From assembly GCA_039801505.1 (NCBI GenBank), contig JBDRUV010000011.1, positions 1-33,189 on the forward strand: a DNA stretch of 33,189 nucleotides. Direction: 5' to 3'. The translations under genes and the position numbers were made by a program. The stretch comes from a candidate division WOR-3 bacterium (GTDB lineage Bacteria > Hydrothermota > Tepidihabitantia > Tepidihabitantales > CAIPLT01). Below the pieces are notes generated by a model that was not told the origin of the DNA, searched no databases, and saw only the letters and a list, made by a program, of their open reading frames with translations. Within the stretch, counting starts at the first letter, position 1, and each line of letters starts with the position of its first letter. Shown one piece after another: positions 2,548 to 31,971 of the stretch.

Positions 2548-3300
2548 ATGAAGGTTATTTATACACCCACTGGCAGGGCGGGCGAATATGCCAAATGGGC
2601 GGTTAATTTATACACCGGCTGTTCTAATGGTTGTATTTACTGCTATGTTCCTAAGTTTGCTCGTCGGTCAATTGCAGATTTTCGAGAACGGGTGGTGCCT
2701 AGAAGTCAAATTTTAAGCGGTCTAAAAAAGGATTGCGAGGAGTTTAGATTTAAGGGGCATACAGGGAATGTGTTGTTGTGTTTTTTATGTGATCCGTATC
2801 CGAGGATGGTCGCAAATGTTTTTACGAGGCAGGTGTTAGAAATATTAAGCGAGCATGGTATTAAGTTCACGGTCTTGACAAAGAATGGGAGCGAGGCTGT
2901 GCGGGATTTTGACTTATACAAGGACGGCGATGAGTTTGCGACCACATTGACCTTTATTGACGATAAAGATACAGCGAAATATGAGCCAAATGCTGATAAA
3001 TATTCACAGCGGGTTGAGGCTTTAAGGGTGGCTAAAGAAAAAGGGATAAAGACCTGGGTAAGTCTAGAGCCAGTAATAAAACCCGGGGTGGCATTAGAAA
3101 TCATTAAAGAGACGCATACGATTGTGGATGAGTTTAGAATTGGGAAGTTGAACCATTTTAATATTCCGGTGGACTGGCGAAGGTTCAAAACGCAAGCAGA
3201 AGAGTTGTGTTGTAAATTAGGTGTAAGATACCTTATAAAGAAAGACTTATCTTTGATTTACAGGACGATAGAGAATTCAAGAAAATTAAAAAACACTTGA
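2548..3300 (+). CDS. Radical SAM protein, spore-photoproduct-lyase-like (COG1533 type)
   Basis: This 250-residue protein has the radical SAM cysteine motif C25-x3-C29-x2-C32 in YTGCSNGCIYCYVP, which binds a 4Fe-4S cluster and S-adenosylmethionine. Downstream segments LLCFLCDPYPR, FTVLTKNG, EFATTLTFID and GIKTWVSLEPVI match the strands of the partial TIM barrel in SplB-like proteins. The substrate is unknown; nucleic-acid repair or modification is inference. The TGA stop overlaps the -35 box of the next promoter, so this gene ends the preceding transcription unit. Confidence 0.88.
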   Translation: MKVIYTPTGRAGEYAKWAVNLYTGCSNGCIYCYVPKFARRSIADFRERVVPRSQILSGLKKDCEEFRFKGHTGNVLLCFLCDPYPRMVANVFTRQVLEILSEHGIKFTVLTKNGSEAVRDFDLYKDGDEFATTLTFIDDKDTAKYEPNADKYSQRVEALRVAKEKGIKTWVSLEPVIKPGVALEIIKETHTIVDEFRIGKLNHFNIPVDWRRFKTQAEELCCKLGVRYLIKKDLSLIYRTIENSRKLKNT

Positions 3301-3324
3301 CAAGTCTTGGTGATTTTGTGTAAT
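3297..3324 (+). promoter_or_regulatory. Promoter of first moron-like unit
   Basis: TTGACA (3297-3302), 16-bp spacer, TGTAAT (3319-3324, 5 of 6 to consensus). The -35 overlaps the stop codon of the radical SAM gene. The preceding A-rich tract and the 14-mer AAACACTTGACAAG are nearly identical to the promoter at 5757, and the 14-mer recurs at 25730. Confidence 0.8.
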
Positions 3325-3383
3325 ACAGGTGATGAGAGAAAAGATAAATCTTAAAAATTCTAAAAAGAGAGGAGGTGAGGAAA

Positions 3384-3854
3384 ATGCCTGGCAATTGCTT
3401 AACCGTTTATTTGAATGTTCATGTCATACCTATTGTCGATTACGGCATAACTACACAGGAATCATGGTACCTGAGCGAAAAAATGAGGGTAATCCCGGGT
3501 TTTGGGGAAGTTGGGGTAAGAGTAATTGGACTTGAAGGGTCTAAGGGTAATCTTTTATCGAATGCGGAGATTGTGAAGAACAGATTTGGTTATTGGTATT
3601 TGAGGAATGAGACAAGGGTGATATCTGAATATTGTATAACGCTCGTGCGGAACATACGGGGCGCACTTGAGTTTGTCCGCCGCAGAAAATCACAAATAAT
3701 TGCGCGTTCGCGCAACGGTCGGGATTGTTTAATTCTGTTTTACAGGGGTGAGGTGTTCGTGGCGAACAACCTTGGCGAGGATTTTGTGTTTGAAGCTGGA
3801 GACAGAACTATTGAAGTTTTACAATATAGAAGATATAAAAAACTAACAACATAG
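3384..3854 (+). CDS. Moron-like gene 1, hypothetical protein, 156 aa
   Basis: The ATG at 3384 is 8 bases after a GGAGGTGAG ribosome site; the GTG at 3375 lies inside that site and is rejected. The product begins MPGNCLTVYLNVHV and is beta-rich and basic (RRRKSQIIARSRNGRDC), ending EVLQYRRYKKLTT. No family recognised. It has its own promoter (3297) and terminator (3861), the definition of a moron. Its mRNA can form hairpins: TTGCGCG-TT-CGCGCAA at 3700-3715, AGGTGTTCG-TGG-CGAACAACCT (one bulge) at 3751-3772, and GTGCG/CGCAC around 3645-3666. Confidence 0.7.
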   Translation: MPGNCLTVYLNVHVIPIVDYGITTQESWYLSEKMRVIPGFGEVGVRVIGLEGSKGNLLSNAEIVKNRFGYWYLRNETRVISEYCITLVRNIRGALEFVRRRKSQIIARSRNGRDCLILFYRGEVFVANNLGEDFVFEAGDRTIEVLQYRRYKKLTT

Positions 3855-3860
3855 AACTTA

Positions 3861-3891
3861 ACCCCCGAGGAGGTATACCTTGGGGGTTTTT
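3861..3891 (+). terminator. Rho-independent terminator
   Basis: CCCCCGAGG (3862-3870), 7-nt loop, CCTTGGGGG (3878-3886; one G-U pair), then TTTTT (3887-3891). It lies directly after the stop of the gene at 3384 and closes the first moron-like unit. Confidence 0.85.
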
Positions 3892-3947
3892 GGGTATATA
3901 TAAGTGATGACAAAAAAATCTTTAATGACGGGGGCGGGGGCGAGATT

Positions 3948-4277
3948 ATGACGAATAACCGATTAATTATGTTAATGTTACCAGTTGTTAAGGATTATGT
4001 TAGGCGGATAAACAGCGTTCCACTCAAAAAAGGCAAATTCGAGAAGGTTGAAGTAGTGGATAAATACAAAATCAGAGTGCGTATAGGACAGAGGGATAAG
4101 GCACCATGGGTGGTGGCTACTTTGCGGTTACCAACTGGTAAGTGTAGTTTAGTGTATCTAGGGTATGATGTTGCTTGCGATATGTATTTTCTCGCAAAAA
4201 AATTCAGAAACAGCAAGAATGGTCTTTTGACTTTTTTAGACGAGCAGGGCAAAATTATCGAGCGTAAGCGAATTTAA
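3948..4277 (+). CDS. Hypothetical protein, 109 aa
   Basis: The ATG follows an unusual G-run (GGGGGCGGGGGCGAG, 3930-3944) instead of a clean AGGAGG. The product is basic and beta-rich (KFEKVEVVDKYKIRVRIGQR, then WVVATLRLPTGKCSLVYLGY). The composition would fit a small nucleic-acid-binding fold, but no family is recognised. It sits between the first moron-like unit and the methyltransferase. Confidence 0.6.
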   Translation: MTNNRLIMLMLPVVKDYVRRINSVPLKKGKFEKVEVVDKYKIRVRIGQRDKAPWVVATLRLPTGKCSLVYLGYDVACDMYFLAKKFRNSKNGLLTFLDEQGKIIERKRI

Positions 4278-4330
4278 CCAACCGATGGTGTTCCGGCGAT
4301 GCTGGGGCATCTTTTCTTCAGAAATTGGTT
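4276..4330 (+). terminator. Weak hairpin before the methyltransferase
   Basis: GATGC-TGGG-GCATC (4298-4311) is followed by TTTTCTTC, which could act as a weak terminator. It is enclosed by AACCAA (4276-4281) and TTGGTT (4325-4330), which can pair and would cover the region just upstream of the methyltransferase start. It may modulate that gene's expression. Confidence 0.3.
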
Positions 4331-4333
4331 TTC

Positions 4334-5215
4334 ATGTCTGGTATGCGGGACTTAAAAATGAATGCGCTGTTTGAGGGTGTTTCTAGAGACATTTGCACAG
4401 AGCAGGATTTTTTATTGTCTATTGTTAAAAAACCTCGGGGTGTAAAAGAGGGTGACCTGTGGGCTTTGGATAATCACAGACTTTTGATTGGTGATGCATT
4501 CAGAGAAGAGAACTGGGAAAAACTGATAGACAAGGAGAAGGTTAGGGTGTTATTTACGGACCCGCCGTATGGGATAAATGTGATTCACAAGAAGAAAAAC
4601 GAGCTGGGCAATATTGCAGGGTTAAGTTATATAAAGGGGGCGATTGGACCTCGGCGGATTTATCCGTTTATTGTGGGTGATGATAGGCCGTTTGATCCTC
4701 GTCCGATTATGGAGTTGGCGAAAAAGTTTGGAGTTAAGAAAATGCTGTTCTTTGGCGGAAACCACTTTAGCGACAAGTTGCCAGTTTCGTCGTGTTGGTT
4801 TGTGTGGGATAAAAGGGCAGGCAGGGTTTGGGGGGTAAATATGAACCATCTTGAGTTGATTTGGACAAATCTAAAAAAGGCGTCAAAAATTTATTATCAC
4901 CTTTGGCATGGCATGATTAAAGATACAAAAGAAGAGGATACCCGAACAAGATATCATCCAACGCAAAAGCCTGTTGGGTTGTTAAAGGCGATTTTACAGG
5001 ATTGTTCTGGATCAGAAGAAGCAGTGGTTGACCCGTTTGCTGGGGCAGGTTCTATGCTAATTGCGTGCATTAAAACAAGACAGCGTTGTTTTTTAATGGA
5101 GATATCGCCGATATGGGGCGAGATAATTTTGGAGCGGTATTACAAGTTCACGGGCAAAGAGCCCATGTTGATTGATAGAAAGCAACCTTTAGAAGAAAAC
5201 AAGCAGGCATCATAA
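4334..5215 (+). CDS. DNA methyltransferase (N6-adenine or N4-cytosine), copy 1
   Basis: Motif IV, DPPYGI (D76), comes before motif I, DPFAGAGS (D233), the permuted order of beta-type methyltransferases. The N-terminal GDLWALDNHRLLIGDAF is typical of ParB-associated phage methyltransferases, but no ParB domain is attached. It would transfer a methyl group from SAM to A-N6 or C-N4 in DNA, probably against host restriction. The start is uncertain: TTG 4325, ATG 4334 and ATG 4343 are in frame and none has a good ribosome site. From codon 31 onward it is identical to the truncated copy at the window end. No cognate endonuclease is seen. Confidence 0.9.
   Translation: MSGMRDLKMNALFEGVSRDICTEQDFLLSIVKKPRGVKEGDLWALDNHRLLIGDAFREENWEKLIDKEKVRVLFTDPPYGINVIHKKKNELGNIAGLSYIKGAIGPRRIYPFIVGDDRPFDPRPIMELAKKFGVKKMLFFGGNHFSDKLPVSSCWFVWDKRAGRVWGVNMNHLELIWTNLKKASKIYYHLWHGMIKDTKEEDTRTRYHPTQKPVGLLKAILQDCSGSEEAVVDPFAGAGSMLIACIKTRQRCFLMEISPIWGEIILERYYKFTGKEPMLIDRKQPLEENKQAS
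4424..4669 (+). repeat. Exact direct repeat, internal copy (246 bp)
   Basis: Bases 4424-4669 equal 32944-33189 without a mismatch. Identity begins abruptly inside the methyltransferase gene: the ~50 bases upstream are clearly related but diverged (TTGTCTATT here, TTATCCATC there). The other copy runs off the window, so the true repeat may be longer. Confidence 0.97.
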
Positions 5216-5305
5216 TATTGCGAGAAATATTGAAATGGGCATTGGAATTTTGATTAAATTGCGGATAAAGTACAGGGTGGCTGCCATCCCCTATTGGAGA
5301 GAAAA

Positions 5306-5347
5306 ATGAGTAAAAGTCTTAAAAAAATCTTAAAAAGAAAGGAGTGA
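5306..5347 (+). CDS. Possible 13-codon leader MSKSLKKILKRKE
   Basis: ATG at 5306 after GGAG (5296-5299); TGA at 5345-5347, three bases before the ATG of the membrane protein at 5351. The peptide is strongly basic. It may only couple ribosomes onto the next gene, or not be made at all. Confidence 0.2.
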   Translation: MSKSLKKILKRKE

Positions 5348-5350
5348 ATT

Positions 5351-5707
5351 ATGTGGAAATGGGTTGGTGTTTTATTGGTTGTGTTTTTAGGCATGCTTAT
5401 CTTGATAAGGATAATTGTTTTGTTATACCGGTATATTGAGTATTGGCGTTGTGTGCAATCGATTGCACGGAAGGTTGCTGATCCGCAGTATTTGTTTTCG
5501 CATTACGACAAGACTATGGCTGTGTGTTGTTATTATAGGTGCTATGGACGATTAAAAAACGAGTGGAACGTTTTCTTAAAGAATACGATTGTAATTGTTA
5601 TAATCGTGTTGTGCGGAATATTGCTATACAAAATTAACACAAAATTTATGACACCCTCGCCAAATTTTTCAAGAAAATTTTCAGAAAACTTAAAACGTGC
5701 TTTGTAA
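5351..5707 (+). CDS. Small membrane protein, 118 aa
   Basis: An AAGGAGTG ribosome site precedes the ATG. Two membrane segments are evident: residues 3-27 (starting WKWVGVLLVVFLGMLILIRI) and about 80-95 (NTIVIVIIVLCGILLY). Between them is a soluble loop with several Cys and Tyr residues (VCCYYRCYGR). A role at the host membrane, such as superinfection exclusion, is a guess from its position between accessory units. Confidence 0.65.
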   Translation: MWKWVGVLLVVFLGMLILIRIIVLLYRYIEYWRCVQSIARKVADPQYLFSHYDKTMAVCCYYRCYGRLKNEWNVFLKNTIVIVIIVLCGILLYKINTKFMTPSPNFSRKFSENLKRAL

Positions 5708-5756
5708 GTCTTTGACATACAAGGATAAGTAAAAATCAAGAAAATTAAAAAAACAC

Positions 5757-5784
5757 TTGACAAGTTTTGTAATTTTTGTATAAT
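5757..5784 (+). promoter_or_regulatory. Promoter of second moron-like unit
   Basis: Perfect TTGACA (5757-5762) and perfect TATAAT (5779-5784) with a 16-bp spacer. The ~29 bases ending at the -35 match the upstream part of the promoter at 3297 except for one extra A, so the two are recently related copies. Confidence 0.9.
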
Positions 5785-5843
5785 ATAGGCGTATGAAGTT
5801 AAAAAAGTTAAAAAAAGAAATTTAAACGAAAGGAGGTGAGAGT

Positions 5844-6347
5844 ATGAAGAATATGAATTGTTATACTGTTACGGTTTACAAGGATCGTCGGAAGCCGGAC
5901 TTAAAACCCGGCATTCCCACCGAAATAGTTTCGGTGGGGGGGAGGCAATTTAGATTCGTTAAAGGCCTCCCCGTTCAAGTTCGTGGACCTGACAGGTGCG
6001 GGCGGATTGACGACCAAAACCTGGAAATGCTGTATCGAGCGATTTCGTGCAACGGCGAATTTGCGACGTATTTAGTTCCGTTGGTTCCGCAGGATGAAAC
6101 CGACGAGTGGTTTGTTCTGCTAGAGTATCCTGATGGTTTTCCGCTTCAGGATACTCTAGATGCTGATGCTGATGAATTGCAACCGAGGTGTCTTCTTAAC
6201 GGAAGACGCCTCTACACAGGAACGGAAAAGATTCTGTACCAGCTCAACGAAAATGGCGTAATTGACCTTCGAAACGATTATGTTCTTTTTGTATCCCAGG
6301 GCGAATTATACATTGACCATAAGGGTTATGTACTGGCTATTTTGTAG
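5844..6347 (+). CDS. Moron-like gene 2, hypothetical protein with hairpin-rich mRNA
   Basis: AGGAGGTGAG (5831-5840) precedes ATG 5844; a second ATG at 5853 would give MNCYTVTVYKD directly. The 167-residue product is acidic, with DETDEW and TLDADADEL stretches, and has no recognised family, signal peptide or membrane segment. The unit has its own promoter and terminator and lies between a membrane protein and the terminase. Its coding sequence contains at least five long inverted repeats (10, 8, 14, 11 and 17 bp), the last one including the stop codon. The N-terminus (NCYTV) and promoter tie it to the gene at 3384. Confidence 0.75.
   Translation: MKNMNCYTVTVYKDRRKPDLKPGIPTEIVSVGGRQFRFVKGLPVQVRGPDRCGRIDDQNLEMLYRAISCNGEFATYLVPLVPQDETDEWFVLLEYPDGFPLQDTLDADADELQPRCLLNGRRLYTGTEKILYQLNENGVIDLRNDYVLFVSQGELYIDHKGYVLAIL
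5894..5972 (+). repeat. Three consecutive hairpins inside moron gene 2
   Basis: GCCGG/CCGGC (5894-5898, 5908-5912); CCCACCGAAA/TTTCGGTGGG (5916-5925, 5929-5938; 10 bp perfect, 3-nt loop); and GGGGAGGC/GCCTCCCC (5939-5946, 5965-5972; 8 bp perfect). The second and third abut with no base between them. All are in the coding region. Confidence 0.9.
6120..6159 (+). repeat. 14-bp perfect inverted repeat inside moron gene 2
   Basis: CTAGAGTATCCTGA (6120-6133) and TCAGGATACTCTAG (6146-6159) are perfect reverse complements separated by 12 bases. They encode the segments LLEYPD and QDTLD. A 14-bp perfect stem inside a coding region is far beyond chance for a gene of 500 bp. Confidence 0.95.
6185..6212 (+). 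repeat. 11-bp hairpin inside moron gene 2
   Basis: GAGGTGTCTTC (6185-6195), 6-nt loop, GAAGACGCCTC (6202-6212). The stem is 11 bp with a single G-U pair, so it is intact at RNA level. Confidence 0.9.
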
Positions 6348-6361
6348 CCAGTACATAACCC
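6323..6361 (+). repeat. 17-bp perfect hairpin across the stop codon of moron gene 2
   Basis: GGGTTATGTACTGGCTA (6323-6339), 5-nt loop TTTTG, TAGCCAGTACATAACCC (6345-6361). The 3' arm begins exactly at the TAG stop, so the last codons of the gene and the stop are in the stem. No T-tract follows, so it is not itself a standard terminator; the real terminator is just downstream. Confidence 0.95.
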
Positions 6362-6365
6362 AAAC

Positions 6366-6397
6366 CCCCGAGGGATTACCCCCCTCGAGGATTTTTT
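6366..6397 (+). terminator. Rho-independent terminator
   Basis: CCCCGAGGG (6366-6374) pairs with CCCTCGAGG (6382-6390; one mismatch) and is followed by ATTTTTT (6391-6397). It closes the second moron-like unit and resembles the CCCCCGAGG terminator of the first unit. Confidence 0.8.
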
Positions 6398-6437: not shown

Positions 6438-6506
6438 CGGGGCTGGGCTCCCGCCAAATCGCACCCATCATAGCCTACTTTACACCTGCCCAGCCCCGTT
6501 TTTTTT
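6438..6506 (+). other. GC-rich 11-bp stem with 39-nt loop and T-tract upstream of terminase
   Basis: CGGGGCTGGGC (6438-6448) and GCCCAGCCCCG (6488-6498) are perfect complements enclosing 39 bases, followed by eight T residues. It may be a terminator with a large loop. Its position, 60-130 bp before the small terminase gene, is also where lambda-type phages keep the cos packaging site, so a packaging role is possible. The sequence does not decide between these. Confidence 0.6.
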
Positions 6507-6523
6507 ATTTTTTATAAAGCCTC

Positions 6524-6986: not shown

Positions 6987-8504
6987 ATGCGTCAGCCTCG
7001 TATAATTTGGGTGCTTGAGAATTATTGTGTTAGGGGAGAGCCGATATCTTTTTCTGAATATCGCTATATGTTGGACATATATGCGGATGAGGCGCAACGG
7101 ATAGTGGTTAAGAAGTCGGCGCAGTGTGGTGGGTCGGAGTGGTTGATTGCTGAGAGTTTATATTTGGCTGGTTATTTGGGGTTAGTTGTGGTGTATTATT
7201 TTCCGCATCAGTCGCAGGCGAATGATTTTTCGTGGGACAGGATAAACAGGGCGATATTGGGTTCGCCGGGCATTAAGCGGTTGGTTAAGAACATTGACAA
7301 TGTGAAGTTGAAGCAGGTTGGTGATGGTTCGATTTATATTCGTGGTGCTGATTCGATGGACAATGTGGTGAATGTGGCGGCGGATTGTATATTGCGGGAT
7401 GAGGAGGATTTAATTAATCCAGAGGTGATACCAGTGATGGAGGAGCGGTTAGGTGCGTCGGCGTATAAGTTGGTGCGTGTGATAGGTAATCCGACGATTC
7501 CGAATTTTGGGATTGACAAGTTATACATAGAGAGTGATAGGCGGCGGTGGTTTTTGAGGTGTGAGCATTGTAATGAGTGGCAGTATTTAGTTTTTCCTGA
7601 CAATATAGATTTTCAGAGGCGTGTTGTGGTGTGTAGGAAGTGTCGTGGAGAGATGGACAGGTCGGCGGATGGTGAGTGGGTTGCTGAGTATCCAAGTCGT
7701 GATGTGCATGGTTATCATATTAGTCAGCTTATTAATCCTCGTGTCAGTGTGGATGAGATAATAGCGAAGTCGCAGCGGAAGTCGGAGAGTGAGATACAGG
7801 CGTTTTACAATTTTGTTTTAGGTGAGGCGAGGGTGCCGCAGGGTCAGCAGTTTAATGAGGCGATGATAATGAAGTGTTGTGAGCCGCAGTATGTGATGCC
7901 GGTGCAGAGTGATGAGGCGACGACGGCGGGGGTAGATGTTGGCAAGTTATTTCACATTAGGGTATCGAGGGTTGAGAATGGTAAGCGTCGTGCGGTATTT
8001 ATAGGTGCTACGTCGTCGTATGCTGATTTGGAGGCTATTTTGCGTCGTTATCGCTCGTTGTATGTTGTGATAGATGCGGCTCCTGAGACGAGGTTGGCGA
8101 AGGATTTGGCTGGTAAGTTAGTCGGGCGGGTTTATTTGGCTTATTTTAATGACAATCAGAAGGAGTTGTATGTTGTGAAGAAGGTTGAGAATTACAATGT
8201 TGTAATGATAAATCGCACGCAGGCGATGGATGTTGCTTATGCGGATTTTTTGGAGTGTCAAAACATTTTGCCGCAGAATTTACCGCCTGATTATGTAAGT
8301 CATTTATTAAATGCGACAAGGCGGATAGAGAAGGACAAATATGGCAATGATAAGCCTGTTTGGGTGCGGGCAGGCGACGACCATTACTTTTTAGCCGAGG
8401 TGTATGACACCATAGCCAAGCATATCTATTTGGATGTCTTGTCAAAGGTTCAGAAAATAAAAACTAAAATAATAAAGCCCAGCATACAAATTGAGAAGTT
8501 TTAG
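6987..8504 (+). CDS. terL: Terminase large subunit, lambda GpA-like
   Basis: 505 residues. The N-terminal ATPase has a Walker A-like KKSAQCGGSE (42-51) and Walker B CILRDEEDL (134-142). A zinc ribbon C192-x2-C195...C216-x2-C219 lies between the domains, as in GpA-family enzymes. The C-terminal RNase H-like nuclease shows D317 (GVDVG), D363 (VVIDAAPE) and D465-H466 (AGDDHYFLAEVYD). It cuts concatemers and pumps DNA into the prohead through the portal. The ribosome site is weak, so coupling to the small subunit gene is likely. Confidence 0.93.
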   Translation: MRQPRIIWVLENYCVRGEPISFSEYRYMLDIYADEAQRIVVKKSAQCGGSEWLIAESLYLAGYLGLVVVYYFPHQSQANDFSWDRINRAILGSPGIKRLVKNIDNVKLKQVGDGSIYIRGADSMDNVVNVAADCILRDEEDLINPEVIPVMEERLGASAYKLVRVIGNPTIPNFGIDKLYIESDRRRWFLRCEHCNEWQYLVFPDNIDFQRRVVVCRKCRGEMDRSADGEWVAEYPSRDVHGYHISQLINPRVSVDEIIAKSQRKSESEIQAFYNFVLGEARVPQGQQFNEAMIMKCCEPQYVMPVQSDEATTAGVDVGKLFHIRVSRVENGKRRAVFIGATSSYADLEAILRRYRSLYVVIDAAPETRLAKDLAGKLVGRVYLAYFNDNQKELYVVKKVENYNVVMINRTQAMDVAYADFLECQNILPQNLPPDYVSHLLNATRRIEKDKYGNDKPVWVRAGDDHYFLAEVYDTIAKHIYLDVLSKVQKIKTKIIKPSIQIEKF

Positions 8505-14933: not shown

Positions 14934-15911
14934 ATGTCTAAAAAATTAATTGACCTTTACAAAGAAACGGTGCTTATCAAGTCGGCTGGTGGCGTTGACC
15001 AGTTTGCGAACTTACTTGGTGAGCAGATGCATAAGGAGTTGATTGACAACTTCCGAAAAATCCCTGACACGTGGAAATACTTTGCTCGGGCTTCTACGGT
15101 TAGCGATTTTAAGCCGCATCATCGGATTATCTTATCTGAAGCTGAGCCATTGCTACCTCGGCACGAGCATGAGCCGGTAAAGGATAGCCGTCTAACTGAG
15201 GCTCGCTATTCGGTTAATGTGGTTGAGTATTCTCGGGCTTTCTCGGTCACTCGCGAGATGATAGTTAATGACGACATTGACGCAATCAAGCAGATTCCGA
15301 AGCGGCTTGGTCGTGCTGCGGCACGTGCTGTGAATGAGGTTTTGCATGCGTTGCTTAATAATGGTGGTTCGATTAACTCTTACGATGGAGTGCCATTCTT
15401 CCATAGTTCTCACAACAATACTTCTACTACGTCGTTAACTCCGGATTTGGCTGGTGCTAATGCGATTATTGCTGGTATTACCGCGATAAAAGAACAGCGT
15501 GATTTATCTGGACGTCATGTTTTAGGATTGACGCCGAAGTATCTTGTGGTGCCTCCAGCTTTATTCTCTACGGCTAAGATTCTGTGCGAGTCTGAATATC
15601 TTGTTTCGGGTGGTGTAGCGGTTTACAATCCTGCGTATGGGTTGTTAGAGCCAGTTGAGGACATTTATATTACTTCGAACACGGCTTGGTATATTACCTG
15701 TGATCCGAATGATGTTTGGCCGATGGAGGTTGCGTTCTTAGATGGTTATGAAGAGCCGAAGCTTTTGCGGCAGGCTGCTGGTGCGGTTGATGTGATTGGT
15801 GGTCAAGAGTCGCCTTATGACTTTACGTTTAGCGAGCTGAAATATAAAGTTGAGTATATTTTTGGTGTGGCGTTTGCGGAACACAAGGCGATTTATCGGG
15901 GCAACTCATGA
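14934..15911 (+). CDS. Major capsid protein, Mu gpT-like
   Basis: 325 residues with the best ribosome site of the head block (AGGAGGTGAAAG). YSVNVVEYSRAFSVTREMIV followed by DDIDAIKQIPKRLGRAAARA is the gpT-type capsid signature, an HK97-fold subunit with an arginine-rich spine helix. The C-terminal half has FFHSSHNN and KYLVVPPALFSTA, also typical. Codons in this gene use C-ending forms (AAC, TTC, GAC) more than its neighbours, as expected for the most abundant virion protein. Confidence 0.92.
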   Translation: MSKKLIDLYKETVLIKSAGGVDQFANLLGEQMHKELIDNFRKIPDTWKYFARASTVSDFKPHHRIILSEAEPLLPRHEHEPVKDSRLTEARYSVNVVEYSRAFSVTREMIVNDDIDAIKQIPKRLGRAAARAVNEVLHALLNNGGSINSYDGVPFFHSSHNNTSTTSLTPDLAGANAIIAGITAIKEQRDLSGRHVLGLTPKYLVVPPALFSTAKILCESEYLVSGGVAVYNPAYGLLEPVEDIYITSNTAWYITCDPNDVWPMEVAFLDGYEEPKLLRQAAGAVDVIGGQESPYDFTFSELKYKVEYIFGVAFAEHKAIYRGNS

Positions 15912-25692: not shown

Positions 25693-25735
25693 TTTTCATA
25701 TAATTTTTATTAATTTTTATATGCTGGATAAACAC

Positions 25736-28939: not shown

Positions 28940-28967
28940 TTGACAAATATTGTTTTTTATGTATAAT
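28940..28967 (+). promoter_or_regulatory. Early promoter for recombination/replication genes
   Basis: Perfect TTGACA (28940-28945) and TATAAT (28962-28967), 16-bp spacer, 100 bp before the nuclease gene. It is one of the strongest promoters in the window and starts the early operon. Confidence 0.9.
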
Positions 28968-28982
28968 TTGGTTGAGGTTAAG

Positions 28983-29006
28983 ATGGAAAATTGTTTTGTA
29001 AAATAA
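28983..29006 (+). CDS. Possible 7-codon leader peptide MENCFVK
   Basis: ATG 28983, TAA 29004-29006, with GAGG at 28974-28977. It lies between the early promoter and the leader terminator, the arrangement of an attenuator. The ribosome site may sit at the very 5' end of the RNA, so translation is uncertain. Confidence 0.3.
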   Translation: MENCFVK

Positions 29007-29017
29007 AATAGAAATAG

Positions 29018-29047
29018 GGCGGAGCGTAAATTGCTCCGCCTTTTTTT
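29018..29047 (+). terminator. Leader terminator inside the early operon
   Basis: GGCGGAGC (29018-29025), 7-nt loop, GCTCCGCC (29033-29040) and seven T residues (29041-29047): a textbook intrinsic terminator. It is about 50 bp after the early promoter and 20 bp before the first gene, so early transcription must read through it. Confidence 0.93.
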
Positions 29048-29066
29048 AACCAAAAAAGGGGGAGTT

Positions 29067-30023
29067 ATGGATATAAAAACCACCCTGGAACAAAAAATCT
29101 CAGAATATATAAAAAACACAAAACGCAATTACCCCGTGCATTCTAACCGCGCATCTGAACTTGGGCATCCCTGTCTGCGATATCTTGTTTATTGTCGAAC
29201 TCGTTGGGAGGATAGGTTAATGCCGTCGGACGAATTACAAGTCGTGTTTAACGAAGGACGAATTCATGAACGAGCGGTTATTGAGTTATTAAACAATGCA
29301 GGTATCCCGGTCGTTGAGCAGCAAAGCACGCAATTCTGGCGCGAGTTTAACTTGTCTGGATCGATAGATGGCAAAATACTGCTTGATGGTCGGGCGATTC
29401 CGATTGAAATTAAGTCGGTTTCTCCGTATACGTTTGAGAAGATAAACGACGTCGACGACCTGTTTTTGGCAAAACAGTATTATCTCAGAAAATATCCGAC
29501 GCAAATGTTGATTTACTTATTGTTAAACAATACGGATTACGGAATATTAATCTTAAAGAATAAGGCGTCTGGACAGATTAAATTTATTGAAATCTACCTT
29601 AACTCTTATTTGGAGGTTGCTGAGGAGGCGATAAAGAAATGTGAACTTGTCGAAAAACACATTAAGGGAAACACTTTGCCGGACCAGATTAACGATTACG
29701 ACGTCTGCGGCGATTGTAGCTTCTTTCATATTTGTATGCCTAATATTGACTTACAGGAACTGCAATTTGTGTCTGACAAGGAACTTGAGGAGAAGTTAGA
29801 GCGGCGGGAGGAGTTAAGCAAATACGTAAAAGAGTATAACGAGTTGGATGTGGAGATTAAAGAGCGGTTTCGTGGCAAAGGGAACTTCAATGTTGGTGAG
29901 TTTTTAATCCAAAACATAAAAAGAACCCGCAAGGAATATCTAGTGCCTGCGGGCGAATATTTTGAGGTGCGGATAAAGAAACTGGCACCTCAAACAAAAA
30001 ACCAAAAGGGGAGGGAGGATTAA
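29067..30023 (+). CDS. Cas4/RecB-like PD-(D/E)xK exonuclease with Fe-S cysteines
   Basis: The ATG at 29067 follows GGGGGAG; an earlier in-frame start lies in the terminator and is rejected. 318 residues: H67 (GRIHE), D101 (SGSIDGK), E114 and K116 (IPIEIKS) form the nuclease site. C36, C214, C217 and C223 (YDVCGDCSFFHIC) fit the four-cysteine Fe-S cluster of Cas4/AddB-type nucleases. It probably resects DNA ends for phage recombination with the product of the next gene. Confidence 0.88.
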   Translation: MDIKTTLEQKISEYIKNTKRNYPVHSNRASELGHPCLRYLVYCRTRWEDRLMPSDELQVVFNEGRIHERAVIELLNNAGIPVVEQQSTQFWREFNLSGSIDGKILLDGRAIPIEIKSVSPYTFEKINDVDDLFLAKQYYLRKYPTQMLIYLLLNNTDYGILILKNKASGQIKFIEIYLNSYLEVAEEAIKKCELVEKHIKGNTLPDQINDYDVCGDCSFFHICMPNIDLQELQFVSDKELEEKLERREELSKYVKEYNELDVEIKERFRGKGNFNVGEFLIQNIKRTRKEYLVPAGEYFEVRIKKLAPQTKNQKGRED

Positions 30024-30735: not shown

Positions 30736-31971
30736 ATGTTTAGACCAGATTTTTTGATTATCCCAACTCAATTGATAACTGACAAACGATTAACTCCAAC
30801 CGACTGCCTCGTCTTTAGCGTTATATATTGGTCCGAACATCTAAAAAACGGCAGATGTCTACTATCAAATGAAGTCATTGGCAAAATAATCTTAAAAGAT
30901 ACCGGCACTGTAGCCAACTCTATATCAAAACTTCGCCAACTCGGCTATGTCGGTATAATCCGACACGGCAATATGCGCGAACTTACAACCCAAATCGCAT
31001 TCAAAACCATTAAAGTAGCCCCCTCTCTACTACCCGAGGGGGCTACGTCCCCTCAAAATGTGGATAACCTGTGGATAACTCAAAAACTTACCAAAAATGA
31101 AGCTACTATATATAGTGGTTCTTTAAAAAATAAAGCACAAAATGTAGGGGGTGGATGTATGGTTTCATTAAATAATGAAGCACTTTCATTAAATAATGAA
31201 GAGGTTTCATTAAATAATGAAACGCTTTCATTAAATAATGAACATAAAGAGAATATAATAGAGAATATAAATATATATAATCTCACTTTTAATAATAAAA
31301 GTGAGAGCGTTGGTAAAAGCAACGCTCCTCCTTTTTCTTTGTCTGATGATGTATCACTAAAGGAAAGGAAAAAGTATTATGCTTGGTTAAACTCGGTGGC
31401 AAAGAGGCTGGTTGACGTGTGGAACGAGTATGGTATTTTGCCGATGCAGGATGTTAAAAACTCGTTGCCGGTGGCGTATCGACGGTTGGTATTCCCGGTG
31501 ATAGAGCGGGTGGGGGAGGGTCGTTTGGAGTGTGCGATAAGGTTTTATTTTTGGTGTGTGCGGAACAATTTAGCCAGTGCGATAGATTTTGTGAGGTGGT
31601 TTACGTGGCGTAAGTATAATGAGTTTCAGGTGATAGATATTTTTTCTGATAATACGATTGAGCAGTTAGGCAGGTTGATAAGTTTTTATGAGGAGGCGAA
31701 GAGTAAGGGGGCTTTGATGGTGTTTATGAGCAGGTTATCAAATTCGCGGATGTGGAGTCGGATAAGTATGCATCATGGTGGTATTTTGGAGAAGTTGGAG
31801 CGTCAAAACAGGAGTGTTATAGAGTTGATAGAGTTTTATAGTGATTTATTAGTGAGGATAAAGGGGCAAGGGGCGAGGTCAAATACGTCCCAAGAGTCAA
31901 AAGAGCAAAAAGAGCCAAAAAAAGAGCCAAAAGAGAAGCAAGAGCAGGGGGAGCAAGGAGGGGTAAAATGA
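30736..31971 (+). CDS. Replication initiator, lambda O-like organisation
   Basis: 411 residues. The N-terminal ~95 form a winged helix of the HTH_36 type (RLTPTDCLVFSVIYWSEHLK, then IILKDTGTVANSISKLRQLG). Residues about 95-205 are a low-complexity linker that contains the iterons (four SLNNE repeats). The C-terminal ~200 residues are helical and probably contact the replication machinery (helicase loading is the lambda O role). The N-terminal half is C-rich in the + strand and the C-terminal half strongly G-rich, so the gene looks like a fusion joined at the origin. An acidic/basic KE-rich tail ends the protein. Confidence 0.8.
   Translation: MFRPDFLIIPTQLITDKRLTPTDCLVFSVIYWSEHLKNGRCLLSNEVIGKIILKDTGTVANSISKLRQLGYVGIIRHGNMRELTTQIAFKTIKVAPSLLPEGATSPQNVDNLWITQKLTKNEATIYSGSLKNKAQNVGGGCMVSLNNEALSLNNEEVSLNNETLSLNNEHKENIIENINIYNLTFNNKSESVGKSNAPPFSLSDDVSLKERKKYYAWLNSVAKRLVDVWNEYGILPMQDVKNSLPVAYRRLVFPVIERVGEGRLECAIRFYFWCVRNNLASAIDFVRWFTWRKYNEFQVIDIFSDNTIEQLGRLISFYEEAKSKGALMVFMSRLSNSRMWSRISMHHGGILEKLERQNRSVIELIEFYSDLLVRIKGQGARSNTSQESKEQKEPKKEPKEKQEQGEQGGVK
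31059..31078 (-). promoter_or_regulatory. Two perfect DnaA boxes
   Basis: TGTGGATAA at 31059-31067 and 31070-31078, each the exact reverse complement of the DnaA box TTATCCACA. Their 11-bp period puts them on the same face of the helix. They suggest that host DnaA takes part in origin opening. Confidence 0.8.
31164..31242 (+). repeat. Four origin iterons, 21-bp period
   Basis: TTCATTAAATAATGAA (arms TTCATTA and TAATGAA around AA) at 31164-31179, 31185-31200, 31206-31221 and 31227-31242, all identical. The 21-bp spacing is two helical turns and seven codons, so it is in phase both with the helix and the reading frame (SLNNE units). Likely binding sites for the initiator's winged helix. Confidence 0.93.

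Follow-up and report, generated by a model that had tools for sequence, protein, structure and literature searches.

The 33,189-base contig JBDRUV010000011.1 (contig C11, complete, hereafter the window) carries three short transcription units, A, B and C, that share a promoter family and a start of the type M(x1-3)NC, and the coding sequence of one of them, gene B, is unusually rich in hairpins for a protein-coding gene. By its terminase, capsid, tail, endolysin and replication genes, the window is a tailed phage, and the 1.94-Mb assembly to which it belongs (57 contigs) is a bin that may mix organisms. We lean, by a modest measure, towards the view that A, B and C are units of the moron type that go back to a single ancestral cassette, predicted to be read by the host polymerase independently of the phage operons. 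An earlier note on this DNA had described A and B as a single expression cassette with diversified cargo, perhaps anti-defence genes, flanking a methyltransferase. Unit C and the hairpin-rich coding sequence of B were absent from that note.

Units A and B share a 5' module and a terminator type

Units A and B and the genes between them are as follows (all positions are those of the window; ORF, open reading frame).

3297–3324, plus strand: unit A promoter, TTGACAAGTCTTGGTGATTTTGTGTAAT, one of three promoter-family members in the whole assembly
3371–3379, plus strand: unit A Shine-Dalgarno sequence, GGAGGTGAG, read directly
3384–3854, plus strand: gene A, 156 amino acids, MPGNCLTV; open frame, coding frame weakly favoured
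3861–3891, plus strand: unit A terminator, ACCCCCGAGG stem and T run; fold −20 kcal/mol
3948–4277: small ORF between units A and B
4358–5215, plus strand: N6/N4 DNA methyltransferase between units A and B (Pfam PF01555, E 1e-13; PADLOC MTase_II, E 7e-29)
5351–5707: membrane protein between units A and B
5757–5784, plus strand: unit B promoter, TTGACAAGTTTTGTAATTTTTGTATAAT, perfect −35 and −10
5832–5840, plus strand: unit B Shine-Dalgarno sequence, GGAGGTGAG, read directly
5844–6347, plus strand: gene B, 167 amino acids, MKNMNCYTV; open frame, coding frame favoured
6365–6397, plus strand: unit B terminator, CCCCCGAGGG..., with T run
6438–6506, plus strand: another strong terminator, after unit B and before the terminase promoter, CGGGGCTGGGC / GCCCAGCCCCG, T8; from the fold

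The sequences upstream of the two genes are 81% identical over 48 nucleotides (nt; 3282–3329 and 5742–5789), with a further 44 nt upstream at 75%. In a whole-assembly search, the region upstream of A (3250–3379) matched that upstream of B over ~130 nt at 72% identity (E 3.7e-11), which bears out the near-identical promoters described earlier. The promoter cores are TTGACA-16-TGTAAT in A and TTGACA-16-TATAAT in B (16-nt spacers), and along the stretch TCAAGAAAATT(A)AAAAAACACTTGACAAGTYTTG the two units differ by one base and one insertion or deletion. The other reported likenesses also held: the same ribosome site, GGAGGTGAG; an M..NC.TV start in both proteins; and a common terminator type, with both terminators opening with AACCCCCGAGG. 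An 11-mer is common to the two terminators, and CCCCCGAGG occurs in the window only in them. The N-C dipeptide is rare, with five occurrences in 10,022 positions of phage proteins, two of which are the starts of A and B.

Beyond these starts the two proteins are as dissimilar as had been claimed, with a BLASTP E value above 30 and a global alignment z of 0.5 (−0.25 without the N-termini), and we reject homology of the protein bodies. Both genes fit the codon usage of the rest of the phage poorly, at 0.02 bits per codon compared with 0.2–0.4 for most structural genes, although the membrane protein between them is likewise low (0.04) and so are a few other window genes. The units flank the methyltransferase, along with the small ORF and the membrane protein, as the earlier note had said.

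A third promoter of the same family precedes a micro-ORF

There are three occurrences in the window of the core promoter pattern TTGACAARTNTTG, where 0.03 would be expected, and the longer pattern TTGACAARTNTTG...TGTRTAAT has three sites in the 1.94-Mb assembly, all in the window, and none in shuffles. The third site belongs to unit C (28940–29047), upstream of the gene at 29067 and before the replication-region operon.

28940–28967, plus strand: unit C promoter, TTGACAAATATTGTTTTTTATGTATAAT, equal to B at 23 of 28 positions
28983–29006, plus strand: micro-ORF ATG GAA AAT TGT TTT GTA AAA TAA (MENCFVK), with Shine-Dalgarno GAGGT; read directly
29016–29046, plus strand: unit C terminator, 11-pair stem and T run, directly 3' of the micro-ORF; fold z −4.1

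An N-C start thus follows all three members of the promoter family, and by chance a short frame in DNA of this kind would begin with N-C, as in unit C, with a probability of 0.006–0.014. The simplest reading of these sequences is that A, B and C would descend from one ancestral 5' module whose cargo was replaced. The earlier note had proposed that promoter and N-terminal motif should occur together elsewhere; this was found within the same phage, in unit C, and failed in other genomes, where the combined Shine-Dalgarno and NC.TV pattern gave no match in IMG/VR and one out-of-frame chance match in 85,000 genomes. The promoter 19-mer was found on four IMG/VR contigs, but the downstream DNA that was read held no similar start on any of them, and we set these aside as promoter coincidences.

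Unit C may be either a nearly empty copy of the cassette or a leader-peptide attenuator. The order of promoter, short leader peptide, terminator and operon seen in attenuator leaders is exactly the order of unit C before the gene at 29067 (28940–29067), and its 5' end is predicted to pair with a stretch just past the terminator, a fold for which no alternative switch was shown. Unlike amino-acid attenuators, unit C has no typical codon run. At 570–660 a perfect −35/−10 pair (18-nt spacer) precedes a 6-codon frame (MIVMDG-stop) and then the gene at 690; this is possibly another leader, without N-C.

A competing explanation is convergence: accessory genes with no common origin would each have acquired the promoter, ribosome site and terminator that are standard in this phage, and their N-C likeness would be chance. 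The −35 block CTTGACAAG has two further occurrences, one at 25735 and one at 6523 in front of the terminase small-subunit gene, so this block is general to the phage. Likewise, GGAGGTGA is a full Shine-Dalgarno sequence of the ordinary kind, not special to the units, the B leader (AAATTTAAACGAAAGGAGGTGAGAxTATGA) nearly equals that of hsp20 on contig C18 of the host assembly, and the bodies of A and B do not align. However, the likeness of A and B spans ~130 nt including non-promoter bases, the family pattern has three sites rather than five or more, and the third N-C start would be improbable by chance. On balance, we regard convergence as rather unlikely.

Comparison with morons

Morons are said to be autonomous accessory loci of temperate phages, reportedly named by Juhala et al. 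for HK97/HK022, and a review of them is reportedly titled 'The moron comes of age'. The units resemble them in consisting of a promoter, a single gene and a terminator placed among phage genes, with odd codon usage and accessory cargo without homologues. Consensus −35 and −10 elements precede A, B and C, as judged from sequence only; a stem and T run follow each of the three; and codon usage differs from that of the neighbours in A and B. Morons are often highly expressed in lysogeny, sometimes from their own promoter (PMC7067206). Unlike morons, several units in this one phage share a promoter and start module, one copy is nearly empty, and one cargo gene has a hairpin-rich message. The promoter family with its three sites, the third copy with its N-C start, the moron-like anatomy and the ill-fitting codon usage together support the earlier proposal of one cassette with diversified cargo.

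Neither gene A nor gene B had relatives in Pfam, PHROGs, PADLOC, the PDB, GenBank phages, IMG/VR or 147 genomes of the phylum, and gene B had none in plasmids or, by peptide patterns, in GTDB genomes. Single-sequence structure models of A and B were unusable (predicted local distance difference test, pLDDT, 33 and 31) and were not used further. These results bear on the suggestion that both proteins have an anti-defence role, against restriction or CRISPR, and are made early beside the methyltransferase. Such a function is possible from the sequences, given the position of both units around a DNA methyltransferase, the small size and unassigned family of the proteins, and promoters that appear strong and autonomous. 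The homology searches lent this part of the earlier note no support, although PADLOC covers defence rather than anti-defence, and the structure models could not add to them; we consider the anti-defence reading distinctly unlikely.

The coding sequence of gene B is rich in hairpins

The predicted fold of the B transcript (−234 kcal/mol) is far more stable than those of dinucleotide shuffles (z −13), compared with a z of −0.2 for the A transcript. We also used a synonymous shuffle, in which amino acids and codons are kept and synonymous codons are permuted. Three runs gave z values of −7.4, −7.3 and −5.8 for the B coding sequence, and such values differ by ~1–2 units from run to run. When pairs were limited to within 60 nt, z was −5.5, with 0 of 400 shuffles as stable, and the excess was kept at 65 °C (z −6.9). 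Synonymous-shuffle values were near zero for gene A, the membrane protein and the ORF at 3948, and among 18 window genes tested this way only the replication gene (z −4.2) came near B. The excess is larger on the sense strand (z −7.3) than on the antisense strand (−3.7), as expected if the RNA is selected. Individual hairpins include those listed below.

5836–5872, plus strand: predicted hairpin that covers the start codon and involves the N-C-Y-T-V codons; pair probability 0.91–0.99; −10.1 kcal/mol, z −2.2
5916–5938, plus strand: 10-bp perfect hairpin in gene B
6120–6159, plus strand: 14-bp perfect hairpin in gene B
6185–6212, plus strand: 12-bp hairpin (2 G-U) in gene B; pair probability 0.99
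6323–6361, plus strand: 17-bp perfect hairpin across the stop codon of gene B

We considered the start-site hairpin as a trait of all three units and rejected this, as it is present in B only. The B hairpins were likewise rejected as a repeated mobile palindrome, since the assembly holds no further copy of them. When the window was scanned in 200-nt pieces, the lowest sense-strand values fell in B, and the sole comparable region was at ~31.1–31.3 kb. Positions 31000–31400, within the replication gene, are repeat-rich, with SLNNE repeats, several perfect hairpins and a fold excess on both strands; this is possibly a replication origin with iterons.

Such a fold could mean that B acts chiefly as a structured RNA, whether decoy, sponge or scaffold, and that its frame is secondary or a relic. 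The depth of the fold, the very strong 3' end (−44.7 kcal/mol) and a promoter of its own with two terminators are what one might expect of an RNA gene. However, B has 167 open codons behind a perfect Shine-Dalgarno sequence, its in-frame codon score exceeds that of all other frames (GC at codon positions 1/2/3, 0.59/0.34/0.47), and Rfam 15 gave no covariance-model match at the gathering score anywhere in the window. We therefore hold a mainly structural role to be very unlikely. Because the frame is coding-like despite the fold, B seems to carry a protein and a dense RNA structure together. Coding RNA is densely structured in single-stranded RNA phages such as MS2, and gene B resembles them in being densely folded into short hairpins; unlike them, it is a single gene of a double-stranded DNA (dsDNA) tailed phage and not a packaged RNA genome.

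Hairpin-rich genes on other contigs

Across 118 ORFs of 390–720 nt on 20 other contigs of the assembly, the synonymous-shuffle z averaged −1.2 (standard deviation 1.9), and both ORFs below −6 sit in two viral-looking contigs. Ribosomal RNA was rejected by Rfam as an identity for the hairpin-rich ORFs of the host. The strongest hairpin signal of the whole analysis came from two adjoining genes of contig C15 (L043), which carries a family-B viral DNA polymerase.

L043, 6843–7409, minus strand: viral gene tiled by short near-perfect hairpins, synonymous-shuffle z −10.7
L043, 7461–7793, minus strand: NLTPH-family gene, 110 amino acids, synonymous-shuffle z −12 to −16

The 110-amino-acid gene contains ~12 consecutive near-perfect hairpins of 14–26 nt, and its product belongs to the phage family 'NLTPH', being 39–43% identical to Paenibacillus phage proteins. 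Homologues from Paenibacillus, Pararheinheimera and a Methanofastidiosa virus showed little or no hairpin excess, while values were −3.7 to −5.0 in an Altiarchaeum virus and −2.2 to −3.7 in a Thermobifida phage. On contig C21 (L049), several accessory genes reached −5 to −7, with weaker values in their orthologues on the related contig L047. Among 63 other phage genes, none fell below −5.0. Overall, hairpin-rich coding genes are rare, clustered and specific to lineages rather than to protein families, and B is among them. A search of an open library for papers on genes of this kind in dsDNA phages or viruses of archaea brought up nothing matching.

Repeats were also seen on these two contigs. 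A tandem array at 8451–11362 of L049, a further phage contig of the assembly, holds four paralogous accessory genes (starting MKVLEL, MKVIEL, MKIIEL and MKIFVI), and two of the four are rich in hairpins, with z values of −5.7 and −7.3. Contig L047 starts with CG-rich repeats (1–173), and at 405–536 an AT-rich repeat of 34 nt, which has a small hairpin, is present four times.

The hairpins could instead be a by-product of mutation, arising where template switches at imperfect inverted repeats turn them into perfect palindromes under weak protein constraint. The short-range stems of B are almost perfectly Watson-Crick paired (five cores, 57 pairs, one G-U), which fits this, as does an excess that follows lineage and not protein families. 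However, the excess survives synonymous shuffles, so the amino-acid sequence does not explain the B hairpins, and the conserved L043 phage protein keeps its sequence while its gene is tiled with hairpins. We judge template switching fairly improbable as their origin.

Another possibility, which we put forward tentatively and with some doubt, is that some dsDNA viruses select 'hairpin-tiled' protein genes, with the benefit of a message that withstands attack or is slow to be translated. If this doubtful view were correct, B might be a moderate case and the L043 gene at 7461–7793 an extreme one, whose 43% identical Paenibacillus phage homologue is unstructured. Strong structure in an RNA target impairs RNA cleavage by SauCas9 (PMC5796797), and by this parallel the folds might protect the B message from RNA-guided nucleases, which we offer only as a lead. 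Genes that combine a protein with a dense RNA fold are hardly described in dsDNA phages, and if the folds do protect messages, for instance from RNA-guided nucleases, they would amount to counter-defence at the level of codon choice.

A possible history of the units

In the cassette reading that we favour, each unit would consist of a sigma-70-type promoter for host RNA polymerase, a strong ribosome site, an M(x1-3)NC start, a cargo and a terminator. The 5' module, from the promoter to about codon 8, would have spread by duplication or recombination, and the cargo would have been swapped, leaving unrelated accessory proteins in A and B and almost nothing in C. Transcription of the units would be separate from that of the phage operons and would most probably take place early or in a carrier state. 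The cargo gene of B would also have been selected to fold as RNA, its start-site hairpin and many internal hairpins giving a long-lived, slowly translated message; we infer that this structure probably limits translation and protects the message. If true, reuse of one promoter and start module for unrelated genes, with one copy left almost empty, would represent natural cassette exchange by a conserved 5' module, and would give a route to cargo genes beyond the reach of homology.

Several observations weigh against this history. The promoter likeness may partly be convergence on the phage consensus, given CTTGACAAG at its two further positions, and the N-C motif of unit C is only two residues long. 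Genes A and B lack relatives in any collection searched. For the RNA component, hairpin-rich genes occur elsewhere in the assembly, so the structure of B need not belong to the cassette, and G-U compared with A-C mismatches in the B stems are too few to separate selection on RNA from selection on DNA. In addition, the hairpin excess is not kept between L047 and L049 orthologues, an argument against deep conservation of an RNA function in those contigs.

The phage contig and its surroundings

The genes that place the window among tailed phages include the following two.

6987–8504: gpA-type terminase
14934–15911: Mu-gpT-like capsid protein

The window also encodes tail genes, an endolysin and replication genes. 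The nearest terminases in IMG/VR are ~30% identical and no close phage relative was found; no such terminase was found in 65 genomes of the host's class. No integrase or repressor was identified in the contig.

The contig stops (32854–33189) within a second copy of the 5' end of the methyltransferase gene, to be compared with 4380–4669; this copy has a different N-terminus and is 100% identical over 4440–4669. Either the methyltransferase is duplicated or the contig is a lasso, with a circle of 4.4–33.2 kb and a variant branch of 1–4.4 kb that carries unit A. The contig end hints that the assembly branches at the methyltransferase, so A and B may in some cases be on separate molecules.

Two genes upstream of unit A match PADLOC phage-defence candidates. 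A DUF488 protein (1671–2078) matches PDC-M19A (E 6e-26), and a radical-SAM protein (2548–3300), weakly related to DUF5131, matches PDC-M41B (E 2e-6); the radical-SAM gene ends within the unit A promoter, with which its last codons overlap. On another contig of the assembly, L035 3986–4259 matches the archaeal signal recognition particle (SRP) RNA family (116 bits), a result that points either to an SRP RNA that has an Alu domain or to a mixed bin.

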